In this document: piece by piece, positions 4,970 to 64,000 of the stretch
Layout: every line of letters starts with the position of its first letter
Position numbering within the stretch: the stretch's first letter is position 1
NCBI RefSeq assembly: GCF_021155765.1
Contig: NC_060116.1
Coordinates: 12,152,001 to 12,216,000 of the forward strand
Origin: Diprion similis
Lineage: Eukaryota; Arthropoda; Insecta; Hymenoptera; Diprionidae
Direction of reading: 5' to 3'
Length of the DNA: 64,000 bases
Notes under the pieces: generated by a model
The model's input: only the letters and a program-made list of their open reading frames with translations
Databases searched by the model: none
Told to the model about the DNA's origin: nothing
Program-made: the position numbers and the translations under genes

Positions 4970-7900
4970 TCCGCCTCTGGTTTCTTCCATTACTTTTTTT
5001 ACTCGTTTTACCCATCGCCCATAAGTTCATCGAGTCTTATATACTCTTCGGGCTTTCACGTGCATGGATGTTATTCCTTCTCTCTTTGGCCCTTCTATTC
5101 CTCTGCCACAATTTTTTACTGCATTATTTTTTACAATAATATTTTTTTTTATTTTCTACCGCTTCGCGTTTAACGATAACGCGATGTAGGAACGCTCGGA
5201 CAGGCGAACGACCATCGGTGTAAACACTCTTATGCAGTTCCTTATTCCCTAAAGCCCGCGACCATTCCCTAGAGAATGATTTACTGCTCGGGCAAATGGC
5301 TTCGGCTCACACTACGAGTTTAGAATCACGATTCTTCTTCTCTCAGTCGACTTTCCTCAGCGCATCCCGTCTTCGCCGTTTCCGGTTGCAGCTGACTGAC
5401 TCTTCTCGCTCCATTGTTATCCTCGCGAAAATTCAGTCTGCAGAATCAGCGGTTATCGAGAGGATCGGCACTCGCATCCTTTTTCAAATTAAAAGAATCT
5501 GTGATTCTACTATCTATTCTTTTATTCGTTTTTTGATTTTTATCTGGAAACTTACCGTGCGTTGATTTGATAACTGTTTAATCGTTTATCATATATCCGA
5601 ATGAGCTGAAGATGTAAGTATAATAAGCGAAGCAACGATCTCCAGAAAGAGGTTAAAGTAAAAACTCGTACATCAGGCTTTCCAGAGTAATTAGTGTCGA
5701 ACCACTTCAGGTTTTATTTGTTTTTAATTTATTCATTTATTTAATTTTTTTTTTTTGCATCATTACATTCAATTCTTGGGAAATTTAAGTACGTGTAAGT
5801 CACGTATGAGATTCGGCAGAGAAGAAGACGAACCTGAATTCTCAAAAATTTCTAATTACATTAGCAGCGCAAAAACACTTTCACTACGTGTTTGACTCTA
5901 TAAACACGTTGCATTTTACGAAGTCAAATTAAAAGATGAGATTTTTTATTTTATCCATACAGGCTTTCACAGGAATTTTTTGTTGTTGATATTGTCAACA
6001 CAATTACTATTGATCTTTTTTTCTGGAGTGGATTTTTATTTTTATTTTTATTTCTTATTGAGAAACATCAGCTCGACCGATCAGATACAACGAACGTTCA
6101 ATTACCTACATTATTATACGGTATAACGGAAGTGTACAACGATAGTAGGTATCTATATAAATACACGATGTCTTGAGGTTATTTACCTCATTCTCACGAA
6201 TTACAAATTATACGTCACACGCAAGAGAATATAAATTTTGCAAGCAGTGTGTGGGTATAATGTAATTAACAATCTTTCAAGCATGTGATTATAAATTCTC
6301 GCGCATCGTGTTGACAAATAATTAGCCATACTTATTTTCGAATACATATCTCTGGCACAGGGAGAAAAAGTTTTTTTTTTATTCGCTGAAATAGTACCTG
6401 TAGGTATGTAATATGCGTTGATTCGCGTTTTAAGATCTGTGACGACAATCCGCGAAAGAATTAATGACGATGAGTCAGATAAAACGGTGGACAATACTAC
6501 CTATGCACATACAACATATAGCATACATGATACGAAGTCGAGGTGCGAACTCGGAGTCTCAAGGCGGGTATAAGAGCCGTTAGAAAAATAATAACATTCG
6601 GTCATGAGCCTGGTTCGACCTGACCCAGACTGCGCACAACCATAACTCGATTAAAATATTTATAATTCCATGGTGCTCACACTCACTCGGAGAGACGCTC
6701 TCACACCTACGAGAAAACAATCCCCGTGTCTAATAACAATGCAAATTGCGTGGAAGACTCGACGAGGCAATCGGAAGAAGCTTTATTTCATTGTTAGTCT
6801 GGTCGGAATGTATACACGCATATGTATTTGAAATTGCAATTATTATTTCATTTTTCCAATCGTTGGAAGAGGGACACTGAGAAAAGAGTTTATTTATTGT
6901 TAACAAACGTATGTTTGGATATGGTGAAATAAATGTTTCGTTACAAGTATGCAATTTGTCAGCTATTAAAAAAAATCTAACGATCATTATTCGGCTCAAC
7001 TAAAGTTTGATAATTATAAGGAAACTTTTGTTTCGCCATATTCAAATATATACGTTTCTTAACAGTAAATAAATTCTTCTCTCGGTATAGAGGGGGTAGT
7101 TATATACTGGTAGTCTGAATCCTGAATTTTGACCAAATTCTGCACTAACTTCAGCCGTCATCTTTAATTTATTTGAGAATTTCGTTTTGACAAAAGAACT
7201 CGCCCTTTTTCAACCGCTGACTAAAAACAGTCGCAAATAAACTTGTAGGAAATTTAATCCTCCACAACTTTAGTCACAAGATCTTATTTTTCTACGATCT
7301 AAACCACGTTTCCGACTTAATACCACGAGTCGAAGTATGTCGACCGAAACTTTTCTGGAATCTGGTTAAAGCACTGGACCACTTCCAGCAATGATTGAAA
7401 ACGGAAAAAGTGGTATCAAAAAGTCGCAATTTTCGCGCGATTTGCAATGTATTTCGGATCGATAATGACGAGAGTGATTAGCCAGTATCAACAGGGTGAC
7501 TGATCGCAAATCTTGCACGCGAAGGGCTTCTGTCTATGCACAAGCAATATACTTCTTGTACCTACACGTACACACCGGTTGGGCATAATAGGTACAGAAT
7601 ACACAGGTAGAGGCACGAGAGCCGGAGAATACGAAACACGAGTGACGGGGATCAGTCTGCTCTAGACTTCAGAGCTGGACGCACGCGCATTCAAGTTTCT
7701 TCCGCTGTTGTCAACCGTGTATATGATAATAATTATACCGTATAAAAATACAGTTGTTTTTCACATTCTTCATTTTTTCGGAGTGAAATTGCTGCTGTTA
7801 TAATTTTTTTATTTTTTTTTATTTTCATTTTTTGGCTCGTATCACTTACGACACTTTTGGTCAACCAGTGCGGTATTTTATTTTATTTTCAATTTTTTAA

Positions 7901-32467: not shown

Positions 32468-35400
32468 ATGCGAAAGTTGCGCGAGACGGAACGAAGTAAT
32501 CAGGTTCGTCTAGCGCCCCGCATAGAAGATAAAAATTCAACGAGCACCGAGCATGTCGTAAGTTGACCTTTTCCTTCGCATCACATAAAACATGGAACAT
32601 TGAGCTGATATCTGATGAGAAAACAATCTAACAAATGCAATAAAATTTAAATTAACTAAACGCAGGAGGACTCGTGTACCGGGGACTGTGAGGCTGCGGC
32701 CGAGGTCGAGAGGCTTCGAGAACTCAGTGTTGAGCAGCAGGAGGTCATTGAGATTCTCAGGCAGGCAGTCAAGGTATCCTATATACACGTACAGAATAAC
32801 CGGAAATGTAGATCATACAATTATAAAGTGGAGAGTTTTTCCGTGGGGCTTATAAAAAAGGGAAAAAAAAAGAACAACGTCATCAAAAGTTATCCACGCG
32901 ACGTTGCGTACGAGTTATTATAATTCCACGACACGCGTCCTGCATGGCGCATGGCGTGTCAAAGAAACACTTTCGCCGACGCAAACTTCCGGCGTCGATA
33001 TCGTGCCTATCTTACAAACTTTCCCGTTCGTCACGAGAACGCTGAGGGTCCAGTCGTTTTAAATCAATCAAGATAATCACCCCCCCCCCCCCCCCCCGCA
33101 CCACTTATGTTACAATTATTATTTTACGAGCCTCTTACCACGTTTTTTCCCTGCACAATTTTCAAGGAGAAAGAACGGAAGCTCGACCAGATCTCGAACA
33201 AGAAACGAAAGGAGGAATTCTACAAGCAGTGGCTTGAACTCGAGCCCGTTGTAGAAGTCGAGGACGAAGACGAACACGAACATGAGGAGGGTGACAGCGC
33301 TTTGTCCAGCGCTCCGTCGTCGCTGTCACCCCAACCTGGAGGATGTGGACAGTGGCAGCAGACAGGCGTTACCAGGGAAGCGTACGAGACGGTACTCCTC
33401 GAGGTTGAGGAGCTGCAGAGTAGACTCGTCGAGGAACAGCGGGAACTTGCTCACGCCAAGAGCCAGGTTCGCGACCTGGAGAAGGCTCTGCTTCAGGAGG
33501 TGGGGCTCGGCTCGAATTGTCTTGTCTCGATACTCTTTCGTGCAGGTCCGGTCGTCGCTTGTCAAACTCCTTGAAACTTGAATCTTTATATTTTCAGACA
33601 CGGGGAAGTCAGAACAGCAGACGAGCCCTGAGCGACAAACTCCGGGAGATCGAGGACCGGGAGGCAACTTTGGTCGCTGAGATCTCGGAACTCCGAGAGC
33701 AGAACGAGCTTCTCGAATTTCGCGTTCTTGAACTAGAGGAGTCGCCCTGCCTCCGGGACACGCCTGATCCGGCCGACAGCGGTATCGTCTCGCCCGAGCC
33801 CATTCACCTCTACAAGGTGAGTTCCTCACACCTGCAGCCGAGACACGCCTGTCGCGAATACTCGATAGTGTAACTTGATAAGCCAGATCTGATACTCCGA
33901 TCAGCCTTTCTAAGCGACGAATACCTGTCTTCTTTTTCTCTGTGTTTCTTTCCTCTTTATATTGTCACACGGGCTGCCCAGTGACCTGAAAAATCTGAGA
34001 ATTTTCGACTCTGCTGCTATAGATGTGACGTCCAACGATTTTTCATATTCCCTAAACTCGCATGTCACGTTACTAAGAATTCTTCTCGTGTAGGACCAGG
34101 TCGGTAAGCAGAAGGACCGCGCCGTCGCGACCATCATTCCTTACAACACTTACAACAGCCCAGCTTCGCCGATACCTCAAAAGCCGCCGTTGTCCCTCCA
34201 GGAGAGCGGGATCTTCGACGAGGATGACGAAGCGGACGTGGAGCTGGCCAGTCGGGGAACGCAGACGGAAGCTCCGGCCGGTGATCTTCTGCAGGAAGTC
34301 CAACGGCTACACGAGCTTCGGGCCCGGATCCAGGAGCGGGCGGTCAAAGTTCCGGTTCCCATGATTGACCCGAAATTGGACGTTCCCGACGTCGCTGATT
34401 CCGGACAGAATGCAAATTCCTATCTAGACCGCATTCGTGAACTTGAGCAAAGACTCGCCGCCCACGAGGAGGCGGAGAGCAAGCGAAACCAAGACAAACA
34501 GCTGTCGAAACAAAGGGAGGAGGAACTCTTGGACGAAAACTACAGACTCACCGAGAGGATTTACTGGTTCGAAAATCTTCTTCGGAATTCCAAGAACCTC
34601 GAGGAGGATCTGAAAGGCTCTTCGAACGTTCAGGAGGACGAGTTAACGCCGAAGAATGATGACTCGCATGTTTCCGAGGAACACGAAGACGCATCATCGG
34701 CGGGGATGCAAAATCCGGAAGCTACCGAGGTGCCGCAAACGATTTTGTCCACTCCAGGGTCTGTCGAGGCCGGAAAATCGATGACCTTGGAAGATCTTGA
34801 CGTGGGATGCAACGAGTGTGGAAAAATGAGGTCTGAAGTGATCGGCAGGCTGGAGGAGCTGGTACAGGTCGAGCTGCTGACCAGACAACGCATCGTCGAT
34901 CTTGAACGTCGGGAGGCGACGTACATGAAGACCTTGCAGAAGGCTGACGAGATGTGGGTCGAAGCGGAGCGGGGCTATTCGAATCAGCTCAAAGAGCTTC
35001 GCGCCAAGCTCGAGCTTGAGCTCTCCGAAAAACAGAAGCTCTCTCAACACGCTGCCGAGCTAAAAGACAAGCTGAATGAAATCCGGACGAGCGATGACGT
35101 TGCGGATCGCTGCACTGAGTGCGTTAGATGTCGCAGGTTTGTGATGCCGGAAATTTTCATCTCCGAAGCGGATCAATCCTTCGACGAGGTTGACGCGGCA
35201 GCTGGAAGTGGAGAAAGCAGCGGGGATTCAGCATCGAAAATTGATCCGAAATCGAAAATTTCCAGTAACATTACCGCGGCTGCGATTTCGAGCGTCGGGG
35301 ATGGAAGCGGTGAAGAGAATTTGACCTCTTCTAAACCACTCGTTAATTCAATCATAGAGCAGGATACGGCGAGAAAGGTGAGTCGAATTGACAGGCTGAT

Positions 35401-36818
35401 TTGCATAATGTTACACCTTTTATTAGCTCGTGCAGATATCGAACATCGCGAGAGGTTGTAAATAACTCTTATGAATCGGAACGGTTTATCGTTCAGGTTT
35501 CTACTGCTCGTGACAATCGTGTCATCCGTGTCATCTTTACAAAAACGAGATATTCAATCTGTGCCAATAGTATGATTCATCGTGCGCGCGTGCCAGCATC
35601 AGGATTAGCATAAATTTTTGCATATTTTCGTAATCGTTTATTTCCCGTTAAAAAAATTCCCACAGTATCAAACCTCCGGCTAAACTCTCTCTCTTTTTCT
35701 ATCTCTCTCTCCTTACTTCCCATTACATTACCAGTCAGCTCCTCCGTCTATACAAATATACTCATCGTTCACCCTGGTGTCAATCACTTTCTCGTATAAT
35801 CGTCACTCAGCGTCAATCGTTCGTCTCGAAAAGTCAAGCCAAACTCCATCTCGTCTCCGATTAAACTCTAGTCGCCGCGGGTCGTGCACACATTGAAATA
35901 GTGCGATTAACAAATAGAAATGTACGAGCTCGTGCCTCGTTTATTGTGCAACTACAGCGTGTAGGTAACTACTTCGTGCCGTACGTGTGTTCCAGTGTAT
36001 GTCGTGTTATTCTTTACACACATTTAAATATCCGGGTCAGAAGCATTGATTACATTTTGCATCCAGTAGGTACCAACCCGTGTACGTTCAGTTCGCACAT
36101 ACCGGAGTCCCGGATGTGGTGGAGTTGCTTAGTCGTTGTTTACGATTGTATCATAAATTTTTTACGCGCGTTTCGAGGATCTCGCTGTTTCGTCACTGAA
36201 GGTGAAAGATAAGCATTTAAGTAGTTGTTATAGGCACTCAATCGTACGATATATAACTAATGAAAAGAAGAATGAGAAACTTTCTCGAGTTGACTGCTGT
36301 GACCCTAAATATCCAGGTTCCCTTCAACATGAATCTCTTCCCGCCGTTTCTCCGTAACTTTTGATAAATTGTTTCAGGTGAAGGTTTCCAAGGTATTCGT
36401 GCCCGAAATCGTTGCAGAATTGGCAATCGAGGCTAAGGAGGAAGAGGCGCCTAGCGAAGAGTCTGATAATCGGATAGAAAATACCGATGGTTCAATCCCG
36501 GACAGTGCAGGCAAGGGTAAAGGAGTCGTTGGAGTGGTCCAGGAGGGTCCTTCGGGAAAGAACGACATCGGGATAGACGTAGTGGAAGGCGGAGAGGCTC
36601 AACCAGAGCCTGTAGTGACTATTAACGAGACAGAACCTAAAAAGAAGGTTAGACCAAAACGGGATGGGCGTAAAGTGAGGGAGAGGGAAAGGGAGCGGGA
36701 GGGTTGGGTGATGAAGGCTTGGAACAAGAATAATAGGATCGATTCGATAGAGCAGGACTTACCCGGGCATAGAATACGTTTAAACAGGCTAGTCTTGTAC
36801 CAGGAGCTTTGCGTTTAA
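32468..36818 (+). CDS. JAKMIP-like long coiled-coil protein, exons 2-7
   Basis: Six exons with clean borders, all phase 0: 32468-32557, 32666-32773, 33167-33499, 33598-33816, 34094-35377 and 36378-36818 (stop TAA). With the exon at 4284 they give 859 residues. The protein is Glu/Lys/Arg-rich with long heptad segments, an acidic stretch (EDEDEHEHEE) and low-complexity linkers. It carries two CxxC pairs in exon 6 (CNECGK and CTECVRC) and a basic tail (REREREREGW). The segment NELLEFRVLELE (about residues 248-259) closely matches, as I recall it, the C-terminal signature of Janus kinase and microtubule-interacting proteins. That family binds microtubules and motor cargo, so a cytoskeletal role is inferred. 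A different golgin-like coiled coil remains possible. Exon 6 shares a motif (DLE-RE-T---TL-KA) with the Cys-rich gene downstream. Confidence 0.8.
33080..33097. repeat. poly(C) tract in intron
   Basis: About 18 C residues inside the intron between the exons ending at 32773 and starting at 33167. Confidence 0.9.
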
Positions 36819-40831: not shown

Positions 40832-41891
40832 TGCGTACTCTGATATTAAATATTACCTATTATATCTAAGTATACATTATATATACGAGATATATTTTTG
40901 AAGAAACACTTTATACTCGTCTTTCGTCGCTGACGAACTCTCGGAAAGACAAGGAAAAAAATATTGTTTTTTCACTACGTTTGATACATTTATTATGTAT
41001 ATGATTATGTGTTACTCGATTAAAATATTTAAATCAATATCCAGGCAGTCTTCAATTCTCATAGTACCATCTACAGCAGTTGTTTTAATTGAGAAGAAGA
41101 ATGTAGTCAGCGTCATGCAAAAAGTAAGAGAATTTTGAATACATATAAAATTATAACTATAAAAAAATTTATGAAAGTAAAAGAAATCTTATTTAATATT
41201 GCAAAAGATCACCAAGGATACAAATTTTCGCAGAATTTGAAACTTATATTTTACACGTGTACCTACAAGTTTTATCGAGAAACGAATCGGTCGGATTTAA
41301 TACATACTAAAATATGATTTCAACTCTCAAGTCACGGTCTAAAGTCTGTGTTTTTACAGAAACGGCCTGGTTCCGGTCTAGTGTTGGCTCGTCTTAGTCC
41401 TGTAGGTTCGTTACTTCTGCAGTTTGGCGCATCTCTTCCCTCGGGATTCGCACTGCAAGCGCTAGTCGATGGCTGCTCGTTTAACCTTGGTAGAAAGAGC
41501 CATATTATACTTATTCATTTTTACCTCAGAAAAGAAACAAAATTTGCTGGAACTTGTAAAGTTGGCATATTTTAAGTTAGTGATCACCATATTTCATTAT
41601 ATAAGGATCAATTTCCGATCGAGTTTAATTGGGTCACCTGAGACCAGTCTGCAACAATCTGGCCGAAGGATCGGCGTTCCGCTTCATGGACACCATCGCC
41701 CCCATAAGTAAGGATGGAACCGCGCACTCCATGAGGTGGATACGCTCGGCCAACTCCGTCTGACGTTGTTCCAGGGATGCCTTGCGTTTCTCGTAGTGAG
41801 AAACCATGTGGGACCAGTAGCTGCTAGATTTCCTGGATGTCGCTGTACTGACAAGAGATTCAGATGACGCGGTAATCTCTGAGCCCGGCAT
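39253..41891 (-). CDS. small protein sharing the N-terminal module of the divergent Cys-rich FN3 gene
   Basis: Proposed exons in transcription order are 41891-41638, 41485-41358 and 39440-39253 (stop TGA). Intron phases are 2 and 1, giving 189 residues. Residues 25-69 match residues 28-72 of the plus-strand gene at 42252 at 27 of 45 positions (core YE-R-ASLE-RQ--L-ER---MECA-PS). That match is the strongest evidence that exon 1 is real. The second exon reads on in phase from a gtgacc donor. The third has a charged, coding-like frame ending PELDRFNFDFVTES. Alternatives: the second exon could run on to a stop at 41332, or an extra exon near 40629-40738 could be used. Exon 1 is well supported and the 3' part is tentative. 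Function unknown. Confidence 0.55.
40798..40830. repeat. (AAT)n microsatellite
   Basis: Eleven trinucleotides, probably intronic in the minus-strand gene. Confidence 0.95.
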
Positions 41892-42251: not shown

Positions 42252-45200
42252 ATGAACTCTTTCCGAACTTCTGATCTCGGTACCGCAGATCTTGGGAGCG
42301 GCAACGTCAGCAATGAAAAGGGCACTAACAGCCATTGGAAGGACATTGTGAACAAGTATGAGAGACGAAATGCTTCGCTAGAACGGCGTCAGGCCCAGTT
42401 GTCCGAACGTCTTCGAGCCATGGAGTGTGCCCTGCCATCGATGCTGATGAACGCTATGGTCTCCATGCACTACGGAACCGAGCCACCAAGCATGGACCTG
42501 ACCAGCATCTTGTCCAAGTCAGGCGTCGGTTCCGGGACACAAGGCGTGGACTTGAACCAACCGATTTCTGAGAGTTATCAAATAGAACTCGTTTACAAAA
42601 GAGATGAAGAACCGTTCGACGCTAACCGGCAAGGTAAGAACTCGAAGGATTCGACTTCAACGTCAGTAAGGAGTTCTCGGTTCGCCACCGGCGATGACTC
42701 GCATCTGAATCACAATACGACTAGTGATGGTCAGGTGCCAACCGATGATGAAGGTCTTTCGGTTATGAGTTCTCGGGACTTGATCGCCCTCGGGCGAATC
42801 CAGGAGCTGGCCGAACAGGAACGTTTGCTCAAGAGGTACATATGCGATCTTGAAAGCCGTGAACGAACCTTCTGCGAGACTTTGGAGAAGGCCAACAGAC
42901 TTCTGAACGATCCATTGGACTGCATGGAGTGTCTGCCCATCTGTCCGGGCGCTGAAGTCAAGGAGCCGCTTTCAAACGATCCGGTAATACAGAGGCTGCA
43001 GAAACTCGAGTTTTACAACAAGAGAATGATCACGAGCATGCGGAGTCTCAGGCAGGAGAAGAACGTGCTGATTAAACAGACGGACATGTTGAAAACGCAG
43101 CTCAGATCCACCCAGGAAAAGCTCGGTGAGGTGCAGAAAGAGGTGCTTGGTGATTCGAAGGTCATTCCTGTTATGGGCGAACCTTCGTTCACCGCGGTGC
43201 GGGGTACTTGCAGTTGCGCCTCTACCACAAACAAAGAGAATACTGTGGGGAAAAGCACAAGTCCAAAAACGCTGATCCAGTTAGCCGAACAATTCGAGGA
43301 TGTCTTGGAAAAAGCCAAGGTTTGTTCCTAAGAGTGCAAATTCGTTAGCCTGCAATTACTTCACCTTTAATTTCTCGCAGAATCGAGGTTTGTGCAAATT
43401 GAGCGGCCCTATTAAGGAAACTGCAACGAAACTGAAGCAGCTGAGCAAATCCGAGGAGGGGTACAAGTGCATTTGCGATTGTCCCTGCGATCCCACAACG
43501 AAAAAAGTTAGTTGATTGTCTTCGCTGAGGGGTGGTTATAAGAATGTAATATCTTGCCCTAGGCTTTCTGGGTGGCGCTTTTCCCGTAGCTATTTTAATA
43601 ATCATTGTTTTTTCACAGCGCTACTGAAGCTCGCCGGAAAGCCTGGGATGAAAAAGGAATCTGCTGCAGAAATGTATTCTTTGAAATATCGTTTGACCTA
43701 CTTTGAACGCAGGATGGACCCTGCCCCAAGTGCCTATGCGGACAATTTGACGCTGATAAGTTAGGCGAAAATGGCGACTGGTTTTGTAACAGCTGTGGCG
43801 GAGAGTGTGTCTGCGATCTCGTGAGTCTCGACGATGATTCTTCTGAAACGAATCAAGACAAAACTAGAAATTGCGAGTGCGGATGCAAAGATGATGAAAT
43901 CGCTTGCAGATGCGGCTGTGGAATTGTGAACTCAAATGACGTTTCTGAAACAGGCGATATATCAAAAACAGTGGTGGGTTGGTGACAATTAGATTTGTCG
44001 AAATTTTCTATGAGATATTTCTAATCCTGCAATCAATCCATTTTTGGCATTCCCCAGGCTAGGAAATTGTCCGAAGATTTGGACGGCATAATTTGCAAAG
44101 ATTGCGGAAATTGCAAGTGCGGTGATGACCACTCCAGGTGTCCGGATTGCATCGAGGCCTGCACTTGCTCCTGCACCACGAAAACGGTGAAAATCGTTAT
44201 ACTTCTAATGCAGTTTATAACGTTTTTATTGAAGAGTCAGCTCCCGATTTTTTGCCAACTCAATTCGACAGCTATGAGTTACTTTCTATTACTTTCCTCT
44301 AACGAGATATTGGTTTCTGCGATATCAGGTGCCGGAATCTTTACCAACTCATGACGAAATCCAGTCAGGCAGCAAAACGAGAGAGTTACAAGATCCTAAT
44401 ATCTGTGGTCCTCGTTGCGCGTGCAGTGATTCGAATACCAAGAGTTCGGAGAACGATGTCGTCGATGAGCTCAGGAGAAGATTCGTGTTTCCATTAGGAA
44501 ACAAAGGTGGGAGAAAATAAATCAATGTGGCTTCAAACAACCAACATTAAAATAAGCCTCATATGACTCTTGGTTCCTCAGGCAATCCTGACTTGCACCC
44601 ATGCTTCGAATGCGAGCAGAAAGAACCTTGCGACGTTTGCTTTACCGAAGAGCTGAAGAGATTAGACGAATCAAAAGTCACCGCGCGTTCCGTTCTTAAG
44701 CAGTCTCTCATACCCCCTTCATCAATACCATGCGAAGAATGTTTGAAATTTGGTACCCAACGAAGCAAAGATGGCGGGAAGACAAGTCCAATGTGCAATC
44801 TGTGTCAAGTGCGCGTGATCCCAAACTTTGGTGCTGAGAAGACCTCAGAAATAATCGTTGGAGATGAAGGAAGTGGAGACCAACTCGACTCAAAAAAAAA
44901 TCACGACTCAAATTGTCCGTGCGGTTGCGAAGCGACGATTTCGACGAACCCAGATGTAATCGTGAATGATTTAAAACTTCATTTCCATTGCTTAGCGAAT
45001 CAGTCTATATATTTTATGGTACATTCTCATTGACAATCCATATTTTATTCGTATCTTAGCAGTGCCTCTGCGGATGTGACGACGATGCGAATAGTCATCA
45101 TGCGATAAAAAAAGACAGCTGTCCCTGCGGATGTGACGAAACAACAGGGCAACACGAGGCATTGCAGGAATCAGGGTAAGAGGATGGAATGCCTAAATAG

Positions 45201-46481
45201 CTGGCTTGAGCCCGATCCTAGAATCGCAAAGTAGATATACATAAAAATGATTCGTTTTTTAATAATTCCAACTGCAGCTGTGACTGCGAGTGCGCCAAGG
45301 GTGGGGTGCACTGCGACTACTGTTGCTGCGTGGATTCCGTCGTGAAAATGTTGAACGATGATAAAATGGCGCACGAAAAATCTCCGGAGACTTGTCCTTG
45401 TATCGAAGATAGTAACCGGGAAGCCGAGATGGAGCGTTTGGCCAGAACTCTTCAGCAGGAAGTCGACTCCATTGGCAGAAAAAATTACGTTCTGCAACAG
45501 CTTGTCGCTAAGTGCGGCTGCTCCTCACCTGAAATTATCGAGGGTTTCTACCCTTCGGATGGTTGTCCCTACCACGATCCAGCACCATTAAGGCCAACCA
45601 TTTCTGGTCTGCAAGCAACTGTCGAATTGCTGCGTGTGAAGAATCGCAGCAAGGATGGAATGATCGCGGCTCTGGCTGAGAATCTTGGAGACTCGGTAGA
45701 CCCTGGAAAAATCGTCGAGAAATTGGCCAAATCAATCGCTGCGGCAACTGAACAAGACTTTGACCAGTGCAGGCTGTACGATTACCTCAACAGCCCAGGT
45801 TGCGCTCAGGTGAATTTCCGCGAATGTGTGACATTGTGCACGAGGTGAAAGTTGAAGAGATTTTTCAACCCCCTCAGTCTACACGTTTCTTGTATTTCCT
45901 TGTCGACAGATCAGCAGCAAACTGCCAAGCCGAGATGAAATTTCCACTCGTGAAGAAGAGTCGGAAGACTTCGGGCAAATTGCTGGAGCTAGAGACGCGG
46001 AAATGATAAACCAATCACGATACGGCATTCCCCCACCTCGAGACTTTGCAGTTCTGAATAAGATCTGTGACGATTGTCTCCTAGTCGCATGGAGTCACCC
46101 GAATGATATTTCGTTCGTCAATGGTTACGAAATCCTCGTTAACGGGTAAAATTACCCCCGCAATATGCTTATGACGAAATCAGTTCACGATGGAAGATGG
46201 AGTTATTAGTCGGAAGTTCTATAATCTGAGGGATTACGAGATCGGAGATTGAGCCTTGATAATCTCTCCAGGAATCTAAACCCACCGGATATTTCTCTAG
46301 GTATTTGGCGAGCCGCGTCAGGTCGCCCACGCGCACCGAAGCTCTCTTGGTTTCTCTTGACATGTCACGCCCGGTATTGTTAACCCTGTACTCAGTTGGT
46401 CCCGGAGGATCGTGCTCCGAGCCGGTAAGGATTACCCACCCACACTGTCCCTGCATCGATAACCAACACGTCTTCAGATGA
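42252..46481 (+). CDS. Cys-rich coiled-coil protein with C-terminal RIM-BP-like fibronectin III domain
   Basis: Ten exons with consistent phases: 42252-43319, 43381-43506, 43713-43973, 44058-44186, 44329-44506, 44582-44955, 45063-45175, 45278-45809, 45910-46145 and 46301-46481 (stop TGA), giving 1065 residues. Order of parts: a module at 28-72 shared with the minus-strand neighbour; coiled coil with Cys pairs (CMECLPIC) to about 350; a region dense in CxC and CxxC (CICDCPC, CPKCLCG, CECGC, CRCGCG, CTCSC, CPCGC, CLCGCDDD, CDYCCC) to about 770; another short coiled coil; and an FN3 domain at about 968-1055. The FN3 (GIPPPRDFAVL, GYEILVNG, a Trp, a late Leu-Asp strand) most resembles FN3-1 of RIM-binding proteins. 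The Cys clusters suggest Zn or other metal binding (inference). No signal peptide, so probably cytoplasmic. The exact edges at 43973 and 45063 could shift by one codon. I know no named family with this architecture. Confidence 0.85.
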
Positions 46482-46629
46482 TCGCTGATCAGGTACTAGT
46501 TTGTTCTATTTCCTTCACAGGAATTGAAGCTTTTGCAATTTTGTTATTTGAATTTATGTTGAAAAAATCAGTGAAATCTCAGAATTCTACGTAAAATTGT
46601 CTTATTTACTTTAAAAAATTAATTAGCCA

Positions 46630-46635
46630 AATAAA
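46630..46635 (+). terminator. AATAAA polyadenylation signal
   Basis: Canonical hexamer about 150 bp after the stop of the Cys-rich FN3 gene. Confidence 0.5.
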
Positions 46636-47000: not shown

Positions 47001-48823
47001 TTATGAGAAGTTATTGGTTCTTGGTATGTAGAAAAGTTTTCTTCGATCTACGATATCGTCGATAGTATTGAGGTCTGGCCACACATCGGGTACCTTGAAG
47101 TACACGCCAACAAGAGGGGGTTGAAAGTTCGGAGCAGTCAAGGCTCGTGGTAGTACGTCGTTATTTTCACTGGGAGTGAAGTAGATTTCCGTTGTTGTCC
47201 CGGTTTCAGTCGGGTAATAAGGATCGTCCTCCAGGACGTTGGGGACAAGCGGTTTCAAGGATGCGGTATAATCGCGTTGGGGAAATCCCGAGGTCAATGG
47301 CGTTGTCGGGGTCGTCGTGGACGGTCGGCCAGGATTCTGAGTGGACTTGGCACCCACTTTGTCCCAGCGAGGATAATTGCTGTTTTGGAAACTGAAGTGA
47401 GATTCCGTGGTCCGCGGATATCCGAAGCCGGAACGTGACGTGGTAGACTCGATGTGCTGTTCTTTCGAGTTCACAGTGAACTGATCTTCGCCTGATCCAT
47501 CTCGAGGATATACTTGCTTGCTCTTTATCAGTTTTTCGAAGTGGGTCCCGAATCGAGCTTCGGTGGGCAGATTGGAGAACGTCTGCTGGCGGTCGCTCTG
47601 CCAGTTCTCGCTGACGTTGAGCCTCTGGTAACCGAAGGGGGATTTATTATATACTCTGTATTTGTCCCCTGAAAAACTTTCCGTGCTTGAAACCTGCTTC
47701 ATCCTCTGATCGTCCGCCCAGTTTGGAACCACGTTCGAATTGTTAGAGCGCTCGGGTGAATTGACTGTACCAAAATGGAAGCGCCCAGTACTGACCTCTT
47801 TACCGACCGTTGAGTTATTCTTGGAAGAAAAATTGCGGTAGAGATTACCCGTCATCCATCGACTAGGCTGCGTCATGGTTGAGATGGATTCTGACTCGGC
47901 TGAAGGTTCGTGGACCATTTTGCCGAGCCGAACTCCCGCCTGGCAGTCAACGAGGTACGCGTGATCGCAGATCAGAGCCTCTTGTCGGAAGGCGGTCATC
48001 TCCGGACAGAGATAAGAAAACTTATTACCCTGGTCATCGCAGTTGTAGTAAATTCTGCAGTTCGACGGTACGTCGGCGTAGTAGCCAGTCGGGCGGCCGG
48101 CGCAGGTGAAGTTGGAATTAATTGGCTGCGCCGTCGTGTTCTGCGGGCATGAAGATAAAGAAGACAATTTTCACATCCAAGTCCATACCTACAATCGTAC
48201 CGCACACTGTCAGAGGTCATTGCGGCAATTACGCTGCCTCATTACCTCCACGCATGAATAAGAAGCGGCGGCAGTCTCGGGTTGCGCAATTCTACATGCC
48301 TACGTAGTCACAAAAAGCTAAAAGTCACTGTATTTCATTTCGAAGGTCCTCTGCTTTGTCTACGCAACTACGGGCAGCATCGAACACACCAGTCGCACTC
48401 GAGATTCAAAAGTTGGTTTGCACGCCCACGTTCTCTCACGGGACAGCGAATTTGAAAATTGGTCAACGAGTGAACAAATTTCATAAATTATATCGATCAA
48501 ATGTCTGACTCGTTCGAAGTAACCGATGGTAATTGGTTGCTGTATTTATTACTATCGAAGGAATTTATGCGTAATCATAGGTCATAATTACTGTAACTTG
48601 ACAGACATTCTTAAGAACTAAAACCAGTCATGCGTATTTTAAAATAACTTGAAATCGCTAATTTCATAACATTTTATGTTTACAAAACGACACAAGGAAA
48701 CTTTGGATATCTTTAATCTAGAAAGAAAATAAGAGGAGTAAGATATTAACTCACGAAGAATGCTTGGAGCTGTGCAGCGGTCAGGCTGATTACGACAAAT
48801 AGAGTAAAAACGTCTCCGGTCAT
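47001..48823 (-). CDS. secreted chitin-binding (CBM14/peritrophin-A) protein, CPAP1-like
   Basis: Two exons, 48823-48755 and 48140-47001 (stop TAA), phase 0, 402 residues. Exon 1 encodes only a signal peptide (MTGDVFTLFVVISLTAAQLQ). Exon 2 opens with one CBM14 domain: six Cys at 36, 51, 57, 68, 81 and 89, spaced x14, x5, x10, x12 and x7, with the aromatic residues GYYAD and IYYNC and the SYLCP...ICDH motifs of insect cuticular proteins analogous to peritrophins with one domain (CPAP1). These bind chitin in cuticle or other apical matrix. The remaining 300 residues are Ser/Thr/Asn-rich and disordered, with an (NT)P-rich patch and a C-terminal segment PLVGVYFKVPDVWPDLN that may be conserved. 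The intron borders (gtgagt; cccgcag) are clean. The class is firm; the exact CPAP1 subfamily is not assigned. Confidence 0.93.
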
Positions 48824-53339: not shown

Positions 53340-56300
53340 TTAAAAAGAAGTCTCTTGTAACGTTTCTTTTGCTTTTACTGGTTTCAGTGTAGATTCACTC
53401 AATTGTTTGTTCCTTAGAGTTTGAAACTTCAATTTATTTGTAACAGTTTTGTCCAGGACAGATCTTTTAGAGTCGTTACGCTGAAGATTCGTTCCCCTTT
53501 TCCTGGGTGATGGGTTAATAACCTCATCAATTTTCTCTGCAGAGTCATTAACACTGTTGGTACTACCAGAAACTATGCCAGATGTATCGGAACTAGGTTG
53601 ATTTCCATCCAAACAATGCAGAAGACTATCGGATAGCCTGTCTTCGTTAAGAATATTCAAATCTGATTCAGATTGTTCAAAATCGCCAGTACGAGACGTG
53701 AAACTCAAATCAACGGGACTCGCAGTTAGTACACTTCGTGATAATAGATATTCTCGAAATGTACTTGTTATAGAAGCACTACTTCCTTGAATTGCATTAC
53801 AATATTCGTCTTCTATTGATGTCACAAAATTTCTACCCTCATTTAAATTTCCGAAGTTTTCTTTGTCCTCTGTACCACCTTGATTGTCAATTAGCACCAA
53901 CTCACCACTCGTACTGTCTATTTTTTGAGATTCTTCCAATATGGATGTACAACTTTTTTTTCGTGTAAGATCTAAATTTGATCTTTGAATGTTAGAACCA
54001 GAACTGCGAGGCGTCCTTCCATTATTTAATGTTGCAAGATTGCATAAGTTTGACCCAGAGATCATCATCACTGGTTTTCTTGATCGTGGAGTCATCATGG
54101 TTTCCTGTCGGAAGTGTAAATTAGTTTCAACAAAATTTTCATGACTTCTTCAAAATAATATTCGTCTGGCCAATCAATCATTTTTTGACCAGAGTAATAA
54201 TAATTGAATTTTCTGATTGCCTTTTCATATCAAGTAGCAGCGGACATGCAGATTCATTATATGCAAACAATGAGCACATGAATAGAAACAGACGCGTAAA
54301 AATAACATGGGATAAAGAGTGAAAACAGAAAATGCAGAATACATGCATACCTGCATAGCTTTACTCATCTTCGTCGTGCTTTGAGTAATTGGACTCATGC
54401 TTTTGTCATGGTTCGCAATGGGCGTCAATGTGCATTCATTAGCAGCAGCAGCAGCAGTAGCAGCAGCTAGACTTTTTCGCAGTAAATTCTTAGCTGGTGT
54501 TGATGTATGTGCCGTATATGTGTTCCAGAATCTACTCATTACTGTTGGAGGTGAATAGCTTGATATTTCCGAAACTGAAGTTTCTGTCTTTTGTGGAGAC
54601 ATACCAGATTGTATATTAGGCATAAATTTCCTGGGAGAAAAAACCACTTCTATGTTGGATTTTCGTGTTACAGGAAATATCGGGTCTGAATTTTGCCGCA
54701 CCAATTCGCCATCATTCATATTAGAGGCAGTTTCTTTCGAATACACTTCAGGTTCACTTAATTGGCGTGAAAATCGTAGATTTGTCGAGGTATTAATATC
54801 TTGCAAGCTGGAAGCTTTGTTTTGCAGTTTTTCTGGACAGACATTGTTGTCAGATTCACCTTGAGTAAAACTTTCCCTGACCCATTCTGATGATTCATTT
54901 TTTACAGTGTTCTCAAATTTTTCGATGCTTTGCTCTTCGCTAATATTTACAAAATTTACTAGCACCACTTTCTTCTTTGACTTAAAATGCCCCAGATTAG
55001 ACGTGTTCAGGCTCCCCGTGCTGCTGCTTATGTGTTTTACATGCAGTAGATTATCTGCTTCCAATGGCTCGTAGCTATCCATGCTTAGCTCATCATCTGA
55101 TTTACTGAACAGTGTTTTTGGCGGAAGCAAAGATTTCTCCAGGCTCTGTTCAATGCATGCAAATAAGAGAATTTTAGTAACATCGTTGCATTCACTTGCA
55201 GAGTTTGTTAGTACAAATAGCAATTAGCACAATTCATTTGATTCAAAAAGGACATTGACACTGACAAAATATCAGAAATTGAAACAGAATTTCTGTAGTA
55301 AAAACACATAAAAAAGCTGGTATTATTTACCGACGACAATATATTCTCCTCGCTGCTAGATCTGGTGATATTGTTACAGCCTATGTTGATGTCTACTAGT
55401 TTTTTATGGCCCAGTATTTTCTTTTGGAAAATATGCTTCTTTATTGAATCTCCTAGGCTTTTAGTTCTCAAATTTTTCACCTGTCGAGGCGTTCCTTGTC
55501 CGTTTTCTTTATTGAATTGTTTAACCAGCCTGCGTTTTTTCGCAGATTCTGGCATGGCCTGAATATGAGCATACAACTGTGCTAATGCTGCCTGCGTGTC
55601 TTGTGTCGAGTTTGCTTTGGCTGTTAATTTGTGATCGACAAAACTAAACACTGTGTGAGCTGTACCAGTTGCATCTGACGTTGATTCGTTTAACTGTGAA
55701 TGGAAAGAGGGGTATGAAATTTGGGAAAATCGGTTTCAAATAATAAGAAAAAATTAAATACATTAAAAAAAGCTCACATCATTTTTTGTAGGACTCAGAA
55801 GTTTCCTTTCTTGTTCAACCCAGTAAGCTCTAATATCAGTGGCTAGTTTTGGAGGAATGTCGAACATTTCAGTGCCTTTTGTAATCATGAAGGCAACTAG
55901 TCCGGACAAAGTCTGTGAATTTATGTGCAGAGCTTCAGGCGATAGTTTCCTTGGACACAGCAAATGTGGAGTGAATAATGTTGCTAGGCTGTCACAATTC
56001 ATTTTGTTGCTGTGTTCGAAGCTTGCCGTTTTGTTTAACAGCCTTAGAACATTTCTAAGCAGAATCCGATTTTCAGATGGTAATAAAAGCAAAAGTAGCT
56101 GCAATGATCTAAGTAGTCTACATTCGTTTGCTTTCATATCACCACACCATAGCTCTGTTAAAAAAAATGAAGATTAATGAGTGACAAATTTTCACACTCT
56201 GTTGTGGTCATCTAATGGGTATGAGATTCACCAGCAATTTGACAGTGAGCAGGATAGTGCAAGTCTGTTAACAATGGCTCCGGCAATTCGGCTAAGAAAC

Positions 56301-57310
56301 TTTTCAAAACGGAAGCACAGTCGTGAACACTAAATCGGCCATCTTCAAAGTTTAATGGGATTCCCTGATATAGCGCGTTTTTCAGGTCTTGTTGCCTGGT
56401 GAGCTTTCCTGTTCGTCGAAAAATCCCTTCTTGTACGATGCCTGGAATAAAACAAAGGTAACGTTTAATGAATGAATATAGTTGTATTGTGTGTATAAGT
56501 GCTGATTCAAACTTACTTTGTTCAGTTGACAGATATTCAATCAGCTGTTTGACTTGAGTTATACCATCATGTGACAAAGGAGCACCCTCTATCACTCCCT
56601 TCTGTAGATTGATGGTTGACTTGGGCTTTTTTGAGAAGCTTATCAAGCTCCATTTTTTTAGTTTAGCTTTTTCCGCCACACAGTCGCTACTGAAAAAAGA
56701 TATTGGGATTTTAACTTATGCTTCATGATGAATGAGAAATATGGATAGATTTTTCATAGGGTCTAATAGATTGCACCACCGAGCTTTTTCTCCATCACCA
56801 ATATCAAGCCAACACAGCAATCAGTCGCAACTAAAATACAAACCACAAACAGTACGGCAGACGGCATCTTGTGCTTGAGGTCGAGACTAGATTTTTGGCT
56901 TCTCGCCATACACTACTCAACGCATGCAGAACGCATTGACACGAAGGAGAACAGTTCTTGGTCATACTCGCATCCCAACTAAATGCACGTTGACACAACC
57001 ATGTAGGGATACAAATTACAGTGACAATACCAGGCAATGAAAAATAGAAAGAGCTATTGATGGTGCGGTAATTCGAAAATAAATACAAAAAAAAAAATTA
57101 CAATCCGCAAATTAGATAAATTCTATGAGCTGACATTGAAACGTTTGGCTTGACAGTGAAACGATTGCAGTAGACAATAACTCACTCCTCAGTGTTGAGG
57201 TCCAATTCAAAGGACAGGTGCATCCTGACGAGGGTGTGAAATTGTTCAGAATTAACTTTTCGCATTCTGTAAGCCAGCTTTCCGTCGACCCCTTCGTTAA
57301 AGTCTTCCAT
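53340..57310 (-). CDS. ARHGAP19: Rho GTPase-activating protein 19 (RhoGAP54D-type)
   Basis: Seven exons in transcription order: 57310-57186, 56689-56517, 56441-56232, 56154-55778, 55693-55331, 55145-54351 and 54104-53340 (stop TAA). Phases are 2, 1, 1, 0, 0 and 0, giving 935 residues. The RhoGAP domain starts at GVIEGAPLSHDGITQ. It has the arginine finger in EGIFRRTG (about R108), the KSFLAELPEPLL helix and the LATLFTPHLLCP helix. Beyond the domain, ALAQLYAHIQAMPESAKK and LVKQFNKENGQGTP match a block diagnostic of ARHGAP19. In that family the protein stimulates GTP hydrolysis by RhoA and acts in cytokinesis. The C-terminal half is Ser-rich and disordered, with many SP/TP sites and a poly-Ala run (54440-54468). 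It is longer than the human protein (about 500 residues), as an extended tail. Its start lies next to a probable bidirectional promoter. Confidence 0.95.
54440..54468 (-). repeat. (GCT)n repeat encoding poly-alanine
   Basis: A trinucleotide run with one imperfection, inside exon 6 of ARHGAP19. It encodes an Ala-rich stretch with one Thr in the disordered tail, so it may vary in length between individuals. Confidence 0.85.
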
Positions 57311-61600: not shown

Positions 61601-64000
61601 AGTTATTTTTCTTCAAAGAAAACTTTTCGTTTTTAGTCCGATCAATGATGAGAGAGTTGATGGCGAGGGAAGTGAAGTAGACATTGGCGGAGGTGACGAA
61701 CAAACATGCGAATGCCATGTCTGCACTGTGCCTCAAACGTCGCCTACTGTAAGTATTTTCAACAATCGTTGTTAAACATACAGATTTATAATTTAATGCA
61801 CATTCCACCCGCGGTGATGTATAGAATGTGAAAATGTTTGATTTGTTCAATTGTATGCAGTATCTTCTATAAATTTTTTTTCTTACTAGCGGATCGGTAA
61901 AGGACCATCTCTTAATCTCAATCTGCAAACAAATAATTTCAATCCATTCCCACCGATTAGCAACGGTTTATCAGGTAATACAGAATTTGTTGCTCACAAT
62001 TTTAGCTACGTACAATGTATGTATTCAAACGATTTTGTTTCTTACCAAATATTTTTTTTTTTTTTGCATTACAACAGGTAGTGTGAATTGTACAGCACCG
62101 AAGAATGGTTTAGTTGATATGAATGGGGTATATCCGCATCTTTATAATCTACACGCAGCTTTTGCTGCAGGACCTAAGAAACCGAACAATCTAGCTTGTC
62201 AAACAAGCTCATCACTGGGTAGCAAATCAGATGAAAAAAAATCTTCTTCATTTGGTACACCAACAAAGAAAAAATCCGAGGATATAAATCTCAATAAGAA
62301 ACAATTAGATGATATTCAGTGTGCTATGGAAGACACAGATTTAAGAGAGACTGAACCGCAACCGTGTCCGTGTGTTTATCAACACGCAAAGGAAATTGTA
62401 GAGAGGAAGAAAGAGGTGCTAGAAAATCCACCTTGCTCTTGTTTACTAAAGTCTAAACAGAAATGGGATACCTGTCCGTGTTTAAAAAAATGTAAGTTAT
62501 ATGTTCAAGTATCCCACTAAAACGTTTTCAGAATCTTTGTCTTATTTGCAACAAAAATATAATATTTTTCATAGCTCGCTCAGATCCCGCCATGACAAAC
62601 GGATATGGACAGCCTGAATCTCTTACCATATCTACTGCCAAACCAATTTCTGCCTCAAGGAAGGCAGCGAATAGGCCAAGCACTACACAACAAACCCATA
62701 TTCAAACAAGGCACTCGACCACCCAGACGCCTAACATCACTCACAACCATAATCATCTACCACATCCTGGTAGGTGTAAGTGACATATCGTTCCATCATT
62801 GATTCTAACAAAGATTCAGATTATCGTAAAATATTCATACTCGCAAACTGTTAAGCTTGATTTTAAAGCTCAAAGGCGAGTTTGCTCTCAATCGTAAGTC
62901 TCCTCTCATCGGATGCGGCACAACAATATTCGAAAAAACAGTGTATTTAGTAGATATTTATATATTGTGCTGTTTAAACACAGGTCCCACTCATTCTCAC
63001 TCGCGTGGTACACTGCCGGATCTCGCGAAGGGTGCAGCAGCTCCTCATCGTGGACATGCTCATCCCAATCATGTTCCACATGCTTGTCACAAACAAGCTA
63101 ACATTGAGCATATAAAGAGGGTGTCTTGCAGCGACCGTTAGTATTTTTGATCAATAATATTAAGTATATCATTTGAAAGTTTTATCAGTAACTATTGAAA
63201 ACAACGTTTTGGTAATTATAGTTGGTGCAGGCGATGGGGATTGTTCAGATTCTGGAAGTAGCCAAGAAGATTCGTGTTCGACGAGTAGTTCAACTCCTAG
63301 AGATTCTAGCAGACATTGCGATTGTTGCTATTGCGAAGTATTTGGACATGGAGTGGTTAGTAGATGTTCAAAATTTATCGCATCATCTAGAAAACAGAAT
63401 TTTATCTGGGGGATACTTGGTTACAAGTTGCTACTTCTGTTTTGCAGCCTTCGGTAGCACCTGTGAGCAGGAATTACAATGAAATGAGAGAGAGACTACG
63501 GCAACTTTTGACAAAGAAGAAAGCTAAGAAGTGCAAGGCGGCGTGTAGTCCACCAAAAACTCCAGTCGAAATCCCACCCTCAAATTCAAACACTGTACCT
63601 ACTTCTAATGTTTCACCTAATCAACCTGTACCAAGGCCTAACACTCCTGTCTCCATAAATCCTGTCCAACACCAAGACACAAGAGATCAGAGGGACTTGG
63701 AGGCGTTGCTTGAATTTATTGAGGGCAATCAGAATAGTAAAAAAGACAATAAGAAGGCGGAAAAGAAGGCGAGACAAAGGCAGAAAAAAGTAAGCAGTTG
63801 GTTACTGAAAAAACTAATTATCAGTTGTTATTGGGAATTTGGTATTTAATAATAATTCAGATTCATTTGCTTTTAAATCTGTCCTTATATTGCATATATT
63901 TGTTCATAATAGTTGGACGAGAAGCTGAAAAAGGACCAACAAGAAGCAGAGAAACAGAGAATAATAGAGCTACAGAAGAAGACCCCTGAAGTTACTATAA
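58664..64000 (+). CDS. FAM193A: FAM193 family protein (FAM193A-like), 3' end beyond the window
   Basis: Sixteen exons with consistent phases: 58664-58891, 59171-59364, 59431-59607, 59677-59816, 60284-60471, 60615-60745, 60894-61004, 61179-61556, 61637-61748, 61890-61974, 62078-62491, 62575-62769, 62984-63136, 63222-63355, 63448-63789 and 63913-64000 (cut). 1023 residues are visible, against about 1265 in human. Diagnostic parts are GPCSCDACKDRR near residue 135, the helical block LCKRDPHQLFMRLEGQAQDF, EQTCECHVC, several CPC motifs, and the C-terminal block CDCCYCEVFGHG followed by SRNYNEMRERLRQLLTKKK. The last block matches human FAM193A very closely. The exon ending at 59816 uses a weak gttggt donor, chosen because only it keeps the frame. 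The start was taken at the first ATG of the frame. The molecular role of the family is poorly defined; the Cys clusters suggest metal binding. Confidence 0.95.

Follow-up and report, generated by a model that had tools for sequence, protein, structure and literature searches.

We report a probable gene of unusual architecture on the forward strand of a 64,000-nucleotide stretch of the Diprion similis genome (contig NC_060116.1, positions 12,152,001 to 12,216,000; the whole stretch is called the window), together with a second locus, on contig C3, which has the same architecture. The order of parts common to both loci is an N-terminal module (N-module), a coil-like segment, a long CxC-rich region, a second conserved block (block 2) and one terminal FN3 domain resembling those of RIM-binding proteins (RIM-BPs). 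The initial annotation, made from the letters of the window alone, had described this architecture for a single protein. Since it recurs at a second locus, it appears to represent a small family, and neither a one-off nor an artefact of two genes. We tentatively take the window gene to be a functional member of this family, whose product would be an intracellular scaffold in which a metal-binding spacer rich in cysteine (Cys) leads to an FN3 end used for docking.

The same order of parts at two loci

At E up to 1, the genome-wide search with the window protein lists 16 matches. Ten of them are the exons of the gene itself and one is a small open reading frame (ORF) with an N-module; contig C3 has two (E values 1.4e-14 and 1.6e-8), contig C8 has another two (5.8e-4 and 0.027), and the last is an ORF upstream in the window (0.088). 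The size of the family in this genome is a lower bound. The C3 locus (L027, reverse complement) yields an eight-exon model, in phase and with a stop soon after the FN3 domain, of 861 residues. The two proteins align end to end, with blastp E values of 2.4e-28 and 7.9e-25, and phmmer gives 6.3e-47 as a one-sequence search, in which the score of 146 bits comes with a large bias of 65 bits. Identical residues are found along the whole alignment: 20 of 64 in the N-module, 60 of 187 in the coil segment, 35 of 98 and 50 of 188 in the Cys region, 42 of 120 in block 2, 5 of 26 in the linker before the FN3 domain and 26 of 81 in the FN3 domain itself. Over residues 1-1048 of the window protein, 33 of 72 Cys residues fall on a Cys of the paralogue, in an alignment that rewards Cys matches. 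In addition, the intron at window residues 356/357 (5' of exon 2) agrees with the C3 model in column and phase, and that at residues 398/399 (3' of exon 2) has a C3 intron no more than one column away. Within the FN3 domain the intron positions of the two paralogues differ (column 1057 in phase 2, and column 1053 in phase 0).

The paralogue is the strongest support for the architecture. It bears directly on the explanation that two neighbouring genes were mistakenly joined in the window, which we regard as highly improbable: all junctions hold phase, and the order is repeated at another locus, for which a closed model was likewise obtained.

The presumed C3 intron between block 2 and the FN3 domain (5013-6256 of the L027 reverse complement) is itself open for 385 codons, the longest in 1000 shuffles being 200. 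It is in frame with the preceding exon and contains hydrophobic stretches, while Pfam gives no match for it up to E 1. Possibly this stretch is retained, or serves as an alternative coding exon. Contig C8 (L028) has two related open frames, 809 and 440 codons long, with an N-module, a coil and scattered CxC.

The cysteine-rich region and the FN3 domain

Cys patterns were counted on the 1061-residue form of the window protein, whose ending is described below, and were compared with 2000 shuffles of the same composition. Among its 74 Cys residues, 58 lie within residues 356-835 (480 residues), as do 19 of the 23 Cys clusters. The whole protein has 25 CxC motifs and 12 CxxC motifs. CxC exceeds composition, both in the whole protein (shuffle mean 5.1, maximum 14) and within residues 356-835 (24, against a mean of 6.8 and a maximum of 17), and so does CxCxC in that region (9, against a mean of 0.8 and a maximum of 5). 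CxxC does not exceed composition there, with 10 occurrences against a shuffle mean of 6.8 and a maximum of 17. The initial annotation had counted about 20 short CxC/CxxC clusters, partly repeated, and its repeated units are all present: five CxCGC units occur in the window protein (CPCGC twice, CLCGC, CECGC and CRCGC). The paralogue has two CxCGC units and additionally carries CPCSC and CPCAC.

No Pfam family is matched above its cut-off by the Cys exons. The TSO1/LIN54-type TCR/CXC profile is not listed at E up to 10, in a search whose HMMER filters can drop weak matches. From the density of CxC we infer that the Cys region could act as a metal-binding rod or spacer. A metal-buffering protein, similar to metallothioneins and with the Cys region as its active part, is a very unlikely alternative, to which the CxCGC units and the 58 Cys in 480 residues would correspond well; the metallothionein profile Metallothio_5, with its cut-off at 25 bits, scores no higher than 8.1, and such a protein would have no need of the coil-like and FN3 parts, which are conserved.

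For the terminal FN3 domain, a likeness to FN3-1 of RIM-BPs had been proposed, and a RIM-BP type is supported by the profile comparisons. The best solved match of the window FN3 is Drosophila RIM-BP (best-domain E 6.9e-5). A joint FN3 profile finds Drosophila RIM-BP (6q9m) at 1.8e-16 (best single domain 3.8e-7), followed by human RIM-BP2 (7.6e-4) and then fibronectin (0.0025). The Pfam profile search of the FN3 segment, suggested in the initial annotation, gives a divided result: the window segment remains under the cut-offs, with about 13 bits for fn3 (PF00041; cut-off 25), but the paralogue segment is above both, with 37.8 bits for Ig_RIMBP2 and 29.3 bits for fn3. As a whole protein the paralogue still has 32.8 bits for Ig_RIMBP2, above the cut-off, with fn3 not listed. 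The genome's own RIM-BP has three FN3 domains, and a shuffling score places the window FN3 closest to FN3-1, while tblastn against the unspliced RIM-BP gene finds only FN3-3.

According to PMC7565545, RIM-BPs combine three SH3 domains with two to three FN3 repeats, and the invertebrates surveyed there have a single Rimbp gene, the sea urchin excepted. In both the window protein and its paralogue a single FN3 stretch is matched, short of the two to three of RIM-BPs, and the Pfam scans list no SH3 family, at E up to 10 in the case of the window protein and up to 1 in that of the paralogue. Due to the single FN3 and the missing SH3 match, we do not file these proteins as RIM-BPs. A lineage-specific RIM-BP paralogue, active in neurons and deprived of its SH3 domains by loss, is accordingly quite unlikely. 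The FN3 introns at both loci are also placed differently from that in FN3-1 of the genome's RIM-BP, which lies further on (read by eye from ORFs); the N-terminal part groups with a different family of coil proteins; and the paralogue FN3, by the shuffling score, does not single out FN3-1.

Gene model, N-module and neighbours in the window

The gene consists of ten exons, all joined at GT-AG and in one frame throughout (Table 1). This confirms the ten phase-consistent exons first annotated, with 1066 residues under our splice choices where 1065 had been given; the alternative splice sites 43970/43973 and 45060/45063 each alter the length by one residue. At the 3' end, a good donor (GAGCCG|GTAAGG at 46424), a pyrimidine-rich acceptor at 46521 and downstream AATAAA signals suggest a correction to that model, namely an eleventh exon spliced from 46424 in place of the ending at 46481. 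The protein would then have 1061 residues. The FN3 core is retained under either ending, and the Pfam scores of the FN3 segment are nearly equal for the two (22.8 and 22.2 bits), which allows no choice. Exon 1 is open for 356 codons, the maximum in 1000 shuffles being 255. Openness by itself does not support exons 6 and 8, whose shuffles are in some cases open throughout; the evidence for these two is the paralogue.

Table 1. Positions of the gene's exons and of related features in the window
Feature	Position	Strand	Content
Exon 1	42252..43319	+	N-module (about residues 27-80), linker, coil-like segment 1
Exon 2	43381..43506	+	End of first helical part; first dense Cys cluster CICDCPC
Exon 3	43713..43973	+	Cys clusters, CECGC and CRCGC among them
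Exon 4	44058..44186	+	Cys clusters
Exon 5	44329..44506	+	Cys cluster CGPRCAC
Exon 6	44582..44955	+	CPCGC and four CxxC pairs
Exon 7	45060..45175	+	CLCGC and CPCGC
Exon 8	45278..45809	+	Final Cys clusters and block 2 (taken as helical)
Exon 9	45910..46145	+	Linker and first half of FN3
Exon 10	46301..46424, or to stop at 46481 if donor 46424 unused	+	Second half of FN3
Possible exon 11	46521..46562	+	13 codons and stop; AATAAA at 46630 and 46648; candidate
Divergent small ORF	41634..41891	-	Second N-module copy, 85 residues
Upstream JAKMIP-like coil gene	33424..35458	+	Related, separate protein; ORFs 33424-33870 and 34094-35458

The N-module had been called shared, and it is indeed matched by the small minus-strand ORF at E 2.4e-16 among the 1696 ORFs of the window. 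Over 61 aligned codons the two copies have a nonsynonymous divergence (dN) of 0.46 and a synonymous divergence (dS) of 1.69, with dN/dS about 0.27. The small ORF and the gene form a divergent pair on opposite strands, their starts 360 bases apart.

Coiled coils, also part of the initial annotation, are likely in the window protein, as judged from a crude heptad score of our own, which reaches its threshold in five scoring windows, none of them within the second helical block, and from Pfam coil matches, all below cut-off. Outside the FN3 domain no Pfam family is matched above its cut-off in the window protein; the initial interpretation is partly supported, namely on this point, on the RIM-BP-type FN3 and on the shared N-module.

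The two upstream ORFs, which we assume to form one gene, have a single segment in which they resemble the window protein as well as the C8 gene. The first matches JAKMIP_CC3 (PF16034) with 43 bits against a cut-off of 30.2, covering 40 of 200 profile positions, and the second holds a segment of 38 residues, 17 of them identical, in common with exon 1. JAKMIP_CC3 is not listed in the Pfam scan of the window protein itself. As for other neighbours, an adjoining ORF at 47004-48170 (-) has a chitin-binding Peritrophin-A domain (CBM_14), an ORF at 56215-56715 (-) has a RhoGAP domain, and an open frame at 61873-62517 (+) has short Cys clusters (CPC, CSC, CPC) with no Pfam match up to E 1.

Proposed role and comparison with known systems

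The window protein has no hydrophobic start and is therefore probably intracellular. For CxC clusters inside a cell a role as metal ligands is more fitting than one in disulphides, sperm being the exception. Under the scaffold reading that we favour, the helical parts would self-associate, the CxC clusters would stiffen the spacer through a bound metal, for example zinc, or, in sperm, through disulphides, and the FN3 end might dock the scaffold to a partner by analogy with the FN3 domains of RIM-BPs, which bind BK channels (PMC6092624). A cytoskeletal or sperm-tail location is a guess.

Several results weigh against this reading. The window FN3 segment reaches 22 bits for Ig_RIMBP2 (PF25523) against a cut-off of 27, and 17 bits within the whole protein, also below the cut-off. 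A genome search with PF25523 finds only the genuine RIM-BP above cut-off (contig C6) and neither of the two loci, at both of which the FN3 is interrupted by an intron. The coil score is weak, the N-module stretch is weak in the phmmer comparison with the paralogue (independent E value, i-E, 0.0083), and no relative outside the FN3 was found among solved structures. Moreover, the C3 exons were picked by eye, guided by similarity to the window protein, so not all junctions of the C3 model are independent of the window model.

A possible, if rather doubtful, alternative is a structural protein of the sperm tail or manchette, in which the coil and the Cys-rich region are cross-linked or zinc-loaded in late spermatids. 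It would be analogous, in insects, to outer dense fibre proteins and to RIMBP3 in its sperm function. Sperm tails typically have Cys-rich proteins, and the JAKMIP_CC3 match beside the related upstream segment hints at microtubules. RIMBP3 proteins seem to be active in microtubule organisation, especially in spermatozoa (PMC7565545). The titles and abstract openings searched do not tie such a protein to insect sperm. An unlikely but far-reaching form of the idea is that of an undescribed insect family in which an SH3-free, RIM-BP-type FN3 ends a coil and a metal- or disulphide-stiffened CxC rod, anchors a cytoskeletal or sperm structure and, independently, corresponds to what RIMBP3 is in mammalian sperm.

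The architecture was not found described in the literature searched, mostly by titles and abstracts and including PMC7565545, PMC6092624 and PMC6198076, nor in the Pfam scans. Metallothioneins and TSO1/LIN54-type CXC proteins share repeated CxC, but the window protein has no match to their Pfam profiles above cut-off. The Cys-rich sperm-tail proteins, such as outer dense fibre proteins and the fly Mst proteins, likewise have dense short Cys clusters; theirs are Cys-Gly-Pro repeats, while the window protein has CxCGC units and an FN3 end. With JAKMIP (Janus kinase and microtubule-interacting protein) the likeness lies in the segment common with the ORF beside the JAKMIP_CC3 ORF, but the window protein itself is without a JAKMIP match, and vertebrate JAKMIPs are not known to have a Cys region or an FN3. 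RIM-BPs (RIMBP2, RIMBP3) appear to share the type of FN3, but differ in having two to three of them and SH3 domains, and they are not known to have a CxC-rich region or an N-module. Their FN3 domains are known from synaptic scaffolds; if a second, SH3-free type of protein combines such an FN3 with a long CxC region, the module would be seen at work in a different setting, and a new intracellular Cys-rich scaffold would become available for testing.
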